64,000 nt of DNA from Cochliopodium minus (lineage: Eukaryota > Discosea > Himatismenida > Cochliopodiidae). The translations under genes and the position numbers were made by a program. Position 1 is the first letter of the stretch; every line of letters starts with the position of its first letter. The notes under the pieces are model-generated. The model worked only from the letters and a program-made list of their open reading frames with translations. It ran no database searches and was not told the DNA's origin. The stretch is from contig JAMYWO010000014.1 in NCBI GenBank assembly GCA_024220525.1, forward strand, positions 147,107-211,106, given 5' to 3'. Positions 32,778 through 36,051 of this stretch are shown here, piece by piece.

Positions 32778-36051
<3,274 letters not shown>

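Follow-up and report, generated by a model that had tools for sequence, protein, structure and literature searches.

Can a single nucleotide serve as an exon? The question is raised by one guanine, G33600, which lies in a gene on the forward strand of the window (the whole stretch of 64,000 nt analysed here), and which an earlier note had proposed to be a 1-nt exon, while calling such exons extremely rare. Reports of such exons do indeed cover only a handful of genes so far. Our analysis indicates that G33600 is very likely a genuine, and probably constitutive, single-nucleotide exon with two GT-AG spliceosomal introns around it. By our estimate, and with a harsh prior against 1-nt exons included, the odds for this reading against all of its rivals together are about six or seven to one.

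The gene that holds the base is, on the evidence of its sequence, a type-B carboxylesterase (PF00135). Three of its exons matched PF00135 COesterase in a genome search, two of them above the cut-off, and a preliminary translation matched solved esterases and cholinesterases. A search of a protein collection gave E values of 0.001 or less for 6268 of 8000 scored candidates; among the 120 protein matches listed there was no close transcript or ortholog, and the best EukProt protein was 38% identical. The translation contains the motifs GQSAG, NES and CHSAE, which we take to represent the Ser-Glu-His triad, and GGGF, presumably the oxyanion hole. The principal features of the gene are as follows.

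32778 to 36051, forward strand: whole carboxylesterase coding region, 19 coding exons, 522 aa, PF00135
32981 to 32986, forward strand: 6-nt exon GCTTGG, support 13.6 bits
33337 to 33342, forward strand: 6-nt exon GTGAAG, support 22.1 bits
35820 to 35919, no strand: 100-N assembly gap in the last exon; the 77 nt before the gap are repeated exactly after it

The rebuilt model has 18 GT-AG introns of 53–166 nt, and with G33600 counted as an exon its coding sequence amounts to 1569 nt and 522 aa, with no internal stops. The earlier note had given the same total for 19 exons; the sum is right and the frame is open, with the qualification that the last exon is split by the 100 N and that the figure holds only if the 77-nt repeat is counted once. 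The gap itself looks like an unmerged overlap, not missing sequence. Four exons of the gene are tiny, namely two of 6 nt, one of 11 nt and the one of 1 nt. The window is AT-rich (G+C 22–30% per 4-kb block), and the assembly, which comprises 44.65 Mb in 598 contigs, is eukaryotic by its spliced genes. Elsewhere in the window there is a near-identical tandem pair (about 40440–41853 and 42391–43804; 98.9% identity over 1414 nt, with 16 mismatches and no gap), whose open frames, judged by eye, resemble RCC1-type repeats.

The disputed junction consists of five elements.

33536 to 33546, forward strand: 11-nt exon GTGATGGTCTG, encoding VMV plus TG; forbidding its donor costs 26.5 bits
33547 to 33599, forward strand: 53-nt intron, GTAAAACA...AAATTAG, phase 2; against 65 reference introns, donor at the 97th percentile and acceptor at the 35th
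33600, forward strand: candidate 1-nt exon (G), third base of TGG (Trp) in VMVWIYGGGF
33601 to 33655, forward strand: 55-nt intron, GTAAAATT...GATAAG, phase 0; against the same 65 introns, donor at the 86th percentile and acceptor, which is weak, at the 11th
33656 to 33683, forward strand: next exon, ATTTATGGAGGAGG..., encoding IYGGGFITG, presumably the oxyanion-hole region; from the rebuilt model and spliced alignment

Every landmark was found where the earlier note had located it: the exon GTGATGGTCTG ending in TG ahead of the GTAAAA donor at 33547, the AG at 33598–33599, the G at 33600, the second GTAAAA at 33601, and the next clear exon, ATTTATGGA, starting at 33656 behind the acceptor AAG that ends at 33655. 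In the string TTAG/G/GTAAAA at 33596–33606, the single base has an acceptor AG immediately before it and a donor GT immediately after it. Direct reading revealed no AG upstream of 33598 in the first intron or of 33654 in the second, so that in both flanking introns the acceptor is the first AG to follow the donor. The lengths of 53 and 55 nt, which had been described as normal for this DNA, are indeed so by measurement, since the 162 other introns span 45–367 nt, and the sizes and splice sites of both introns are normal for the genome.

The reading frame and the protein family converge on the same base. Translation confirmed that joining 33546 directly to 33656 produces GTC followed by a TGA stop, and the rebuilt translation confirmed that G33600 completes TGG and restores VMVWIYGGGF, both as had been claimed. 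Among 112 homologs the disputed residue is F in 58, W in 44, Y in 9 and C in 1, that is, F, W or Y in 111 of 112; because these residues dominate, and TGT or TGC would give C, the codon needed is TGG. The motif around this residue has no insertion columns and is gapped in a single homolog of the 112 (P0009). With canonical splice sites, a full-length protein with the motif unchanged can be obtained only via the 1-nt exon at 33600.

To compare gene models, we wrote a GeneWise-like program that aligns a protein profile to the genome and permits GT-AG introns, gaps and frameshifts. The profile was built from the 112 homologs, which had been gathered using the 1-nt-exon translation as query, with the carboxylesterase gene itself left out; the splice matrices came from the gene's 16 undisputed introns, the two introns flanking 33600 being left out. 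An intron cost of −7 proved too permissive, since it gave spurious terminal pieces, some of 1 nt or of no length at all, in paralog ends that are not homologous, and the cost was recalibrated. The program's best parse was the model of 19 exons with the 1-nt exon among them; when this exon was disallowed, the score fell by 18.0 bits under the initial setting. Across intron costs of −12 to −18 and frameshift costs from cheap (−13) to dear (−25), the 1-nt exon stayed ahead of canonical and frameshift alternatives by 12.9–18.0 bits, and its support was 21.8 bits with splice matrices retrained on 65 introns; these margins favour the 1-nt-exon reading, as the scoring has no explicit prior against 1-nt exons. 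Whatever intron and frameshift penalties were tried, the interpretation put forward in the earlier note came out as the best parse. Deprived of the 1-nt exon, the program fell back on a 13-nt exon at 33600–33612 with a 43-nt intron, on a 6-nt exon with donor GTCTGG, or on a frameshift. Demonstrated for G33600 are its sequence, its canonical sites and the superiority of the model that includes it, together with tiny exons elsewhere in the family.

The rival least excluded by the sequence alone would be one 109-nt GT-AA intron, TG/GTAAAA...GATAA/G ATT (or a TA-AG intron, shifted by one), which would give an identical mRNA and an identical protein with one intron fewer, and would reduce the mid-intron AGGGTAAAA to coincidence. 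It was the best parse lacking a microexon, falling behind by 1.4, 3.4, 5.4 and 8.4 bits at penalties of 6, 8, 10 and 13 bits. However, when GT-AA introns were allowed, the best parse of the carboxylesterase gene used none at any of the four penalties. GT-AG models sufficed for all 162 other introns, no gene needing a frameshift, which is indirect evidence since the program allowed GT-AG alone there. Such an intron also leaves the strong central acceptor-donor pair unexplained, given that none of 57 long introns has one. We regard it as very improbable.

That central pair was evaluated further against chance. Under a first-order Markov model of 65 other introns, a central AGGGT ('central' meaning that both halves measure at least 45 nt) occurred in 0.06% of 109-nt spans and AGGGTAAA in 0.0025%. 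In 5000 dinucleotide shuffles of the 109-nt span itself, AGGGT was central in 36 (0.7%) and AGGGTAAA in 2 (0.04%). Introns of 91 nt or more (n = 57) included none with a central donor of at least 9.5 bits and 8 with a comparable acceptor. An eligible AG-N-GT, again with halves of at least 45 nt, was present in 1 of the 162 other introns of the 46 genes modelled, and in none of 324 tests would a hypothetical missing exon base have been supplied by an intron's AG-N-GT. Three main causes compete to account for the base that the junction lacks, namely the 1-nt exon, the non-canonical intron just described and the missing base considered below, and the last two both need the central AG-G-GTAAAA to be a coincidence.

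An improbable alternative is that the true genome, or a functional allele, has a G after the acceptor that is lacking here, either through an assembly error or through a real frameshift in this strain. The assembly is imperfect in this very gene, which holds an unmerged join in the form of the exact 77-nt repeat around 100 N. Against this, the error would have to hit the exact junction, at a place where an AG-G-GTAAAA with the right spacing had also arisen by chance; the near-identical pair in the window aligns over its 1414 nt without a gap; and the unmodified 46 gene models, covering about 25.6 kb of coding sequence with some models partial, needed no frameshifts. The 46 models cover 7012 nt in six carboxylesterase genes and 18605 nt in 40 Ras-family loci. 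Out of at least 164 Ras matches, these 40 were picked as likely to contain introns (the model of L051 has a single exon), and 20 intronless loci supplied the profile to which they were aligned. Partial models are those of the carboxylesterase genes C56 (7 exons; the model ends early, and this might conceal a defect), C35 (3 C-terminal exons) and C24, and of several Ras loci, for example L051, L060, L066 and L081; one spurious terminal piece each was dropped from C35, L057 and L085 before counting.

The sensitivity of this comparison was gauged by a deletion control, in which the last exon base was removed upstream of 154 introns, the 8 introns of C56 and C35 being left out. None of the 154 runs invented a new 1-nt exon. 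A 1-nt exon was present in 16 of them, always the one at 33600, these being runs on the carboxylesterase gene itself. Of the simulated losses, 72 were read as a frameshift and 66 were absorbed otherwise, indicating that roughly one real missing base in two would surface as a frameshift in this program; the absence of frameshifts is thus a weaker control than it sounds, and the bound that it places on the error rate is about twofold looser.

Canonical in-frame alternatives are scarcely credible. One would be an exon at 33600–33612 followed by a 43-nt intron, which would add VKFL after W; another a 6-nt exon at 33536–33541 with donor GTCTGG, which would drop VW; and a third a skip of 33463–33655, which would drop VMVW. 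Each of the three uses GT-AG sites and keeps the frame; the program chose the first two once the 1-nt exon was forbidden, and the skip was read from the sequence. However, among the 65 introns the donor at 33613 falls at the 0th percentile and the one at 33542 at the 2nd, compared with the 97th and 86th for those at 33547 and 33601, and the 43-nt intron is shorter than the shortest of the 162 introns (45 nt). The added or lost residues likewise run against a motif that has no insertion column and is gapped in only one homolog, and the first two alternatives scored 15.1–18.0 bits worse than the 1-nt exon. A recursive-splicing ratchet point (AG/GT, with no base kept) was rejected, as the G sits between AG and GT and is needed.

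If G33600 is a single-nucleotide exon, as we favour, its inclusion in the mRNA, the order of splicing and the origin of the intron pair are matters that we infer. Only one base separates the acceptor AG from the donor GT, and the first intron's AG overlaps the exon side of the second donor, which makes it implausible that the machinery recognising each site could bind both at once. The 53- and 55-nt introns are therefore most likely removed stepwise, one by one, by intron definition. Removal of the first intron would join TG to GGTAAAA and create a normal donor, TGG/GTAAAATT, for the second (score 7.9, compared with 9.6 for the genomic site); the reverse order would work too. The predicted product, GTG ATG GTC TGG ATT TAT GGA, would keep the strand and the oxyanion-hole motif of a type-B carboxylesterase. 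Were the base skipped, a TGA would stand at the junction, upstream of the serine, glutamate and histidine motifs.

Comparable cases are few. The APC11 gene of Arabidopsis and other land plants is reported to contain a 1-nt exon, A, in a 422-nt span, which was proven by cDNA and mutated constructs and is conserved among land plants (PMC4674806; PMC8831610). The authors, who worked with plant protoplasts, favoured intron definition plus recursive, successive removal (PMC4674806). APC11 resembles 33600 in having one base between AG and GT that is essential for the frame, with ordinary spliceosomal introns around it; it differs in the base (A versus G), in the span (422 versus 109 nt), and in being proven by cDNA, whereas 33600 is known from DNA alone. 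A 1-nt microexon in land-plant VPS55 is described as supported by RNA-seq and RT-PCR, as costing the N-terminus when omitted, and as alternatively included in some lineages (PMC8831610); it is similarly required for the full protein, and had been missed by annotation.

The 1-nt exon of Fusarium CYP621A reportedly has the arrangement AG-G-GT within a 139-nt span in F. graminearum, is found in 20 Fusarium orthologs and is supported by SRA reads of two species (PMC12940212). Both share AGGGT, short introns typical of the host genome and a conserved enzyme motif; in CYP621A the base is the middle one of a Gly codon, in contrast to the third base of a Trp codon at 33600, and the span is 139 versus 109 nt. 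Placozoan mitochondrial cox1 is reported to have a 1-bp exon with trans-splicing introns (PMC5436844), a single-base exon like 33600 but mitochondrial and not processed by the nuclear spliceosome. Ratchet points of recursive splicing are reported to juxtapose acceptor and donor inside a long intron that is removed stepwise (PMC5126111, PMC8605326); this juxtaposition within a longer span recalls 33600, which, unlike them, keeps one base, in a span of 109 nt.

Among the open-licence papers covered, by title, abstract or text, we found no 1-nt exon in a protist, the cases being from plants, Fusarium and mitochondria. G33600 as read from the DNA adds to a known, very rare kind, and what is new is the organism and the compact 109-nt unit. 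If RNA confirms it, the very short list of 1-nt exons would gain a eukaryote that seems to belong neither to the plants nor to Fusarium, and the intron-exon-intron unit of 109 nt would offer a compact substrate for studying how a spliceosome copes when only one base separates an acceptor from a donor. It would also show that in genomes of this kind gene finders will cut short or lose motifs, as with the strand that precedes the oxyanion hole in this gene.

A search of the genome at the DNA level with 33390–34160 as query, in which 40 of 317 candidates were scored, found no second genomic copy with the junction among the 83 matches listed. Of these matches, 81 fall within the AT-rich intron at 33828–33960, one corresponds to the query region, and the remaining one is a fragment on C135 (L015, 1501–1592) that resembles 34000–34107, with 83% identity over the first 90 nt and a frame that agrees for 17 residues only. 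The fragment spans the end of an exon and the start of the following intron, indicating that it was copied as DNA and not from mRNA, and the junction at 33600 lies outside it. To judge from its sequence, it is a short, decayed relic at the DNA level and is uninformative on 33600. Tandem duplication of one intron was also considered as the source of the pair and gained no support, since the similarity score of 14.5 between the two introns was reached by 15.3% of 2145 other short-intron pairs. The pair probably originated by insertion of introns on either side of one G, in a lineage with dense intron gain.

The six carboxylesterase genes have 9.6 introns per kb of coding sequence, compared with 5.2 in the Ras set, and 7 of their 61 internal exons measure 15 nt or less (1, 3, 6, 6, 7, 11 and 13 nt), as do 3 of 58 in the Ras set (11, 13 and 13 nt). 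No other 1- or 2-nt exon was found among the 118 other internal exons of the 46 models, in which the smallest measures 3 nt. The 7-nt exon had 25.4 bits of support, and the 3-nt exon, in the C24 paralog, only 6.2. The latter is a candidate exon TTG (L011, reverse-strand coordinates 1918–1920) in the context PVM-L-FIHGG, between introns of 55 and 65 nt; no close transcript for this paralog was among the protein matches listed.

Within the motif PVMVWIYGG, introns occupy five different positions within 12 nt among the paralogs. In the gene at 32778–36051 they lie after LP, in codon W and after W; in paralogs they lie after PVM (C24 and C341) and after the next codon (C24); C77 and the partial C56 model have no intron there. 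This distribution points to repeated, independent intron insertion, with very short exons as a by-product, and it makes the carboxylesterase family a natural test bed for intron gain. We offer only tentatively, and think rather doubtful, the broader proposal that this lineage has no lower limit on exon size, dense continuing insertion and pure intron definition routinely giving exons of 6, 3 and 1 nt so that more 1-nt exons are to be expected, and that skipping of 33600, with its TGA, could serve to switch the enzyme on and off; the use of that stop as a switch is speculation.

The Ras family presents a mixed picture of its own. Genome-wide there are at least 164 Ras-family matches, in which full-length intronless copies occur alongside intron-dense relatives, a mixture that hints at intron loss by retrocopying or at uneven intron gain. 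One Ras-like match, on the reverse strand of C1 at 633782–634150, lies inside an open frame of 14711 aa, which would mean either a protein of giant size or a giant frame without interruption, in a genome that is otherwise intron-rich.
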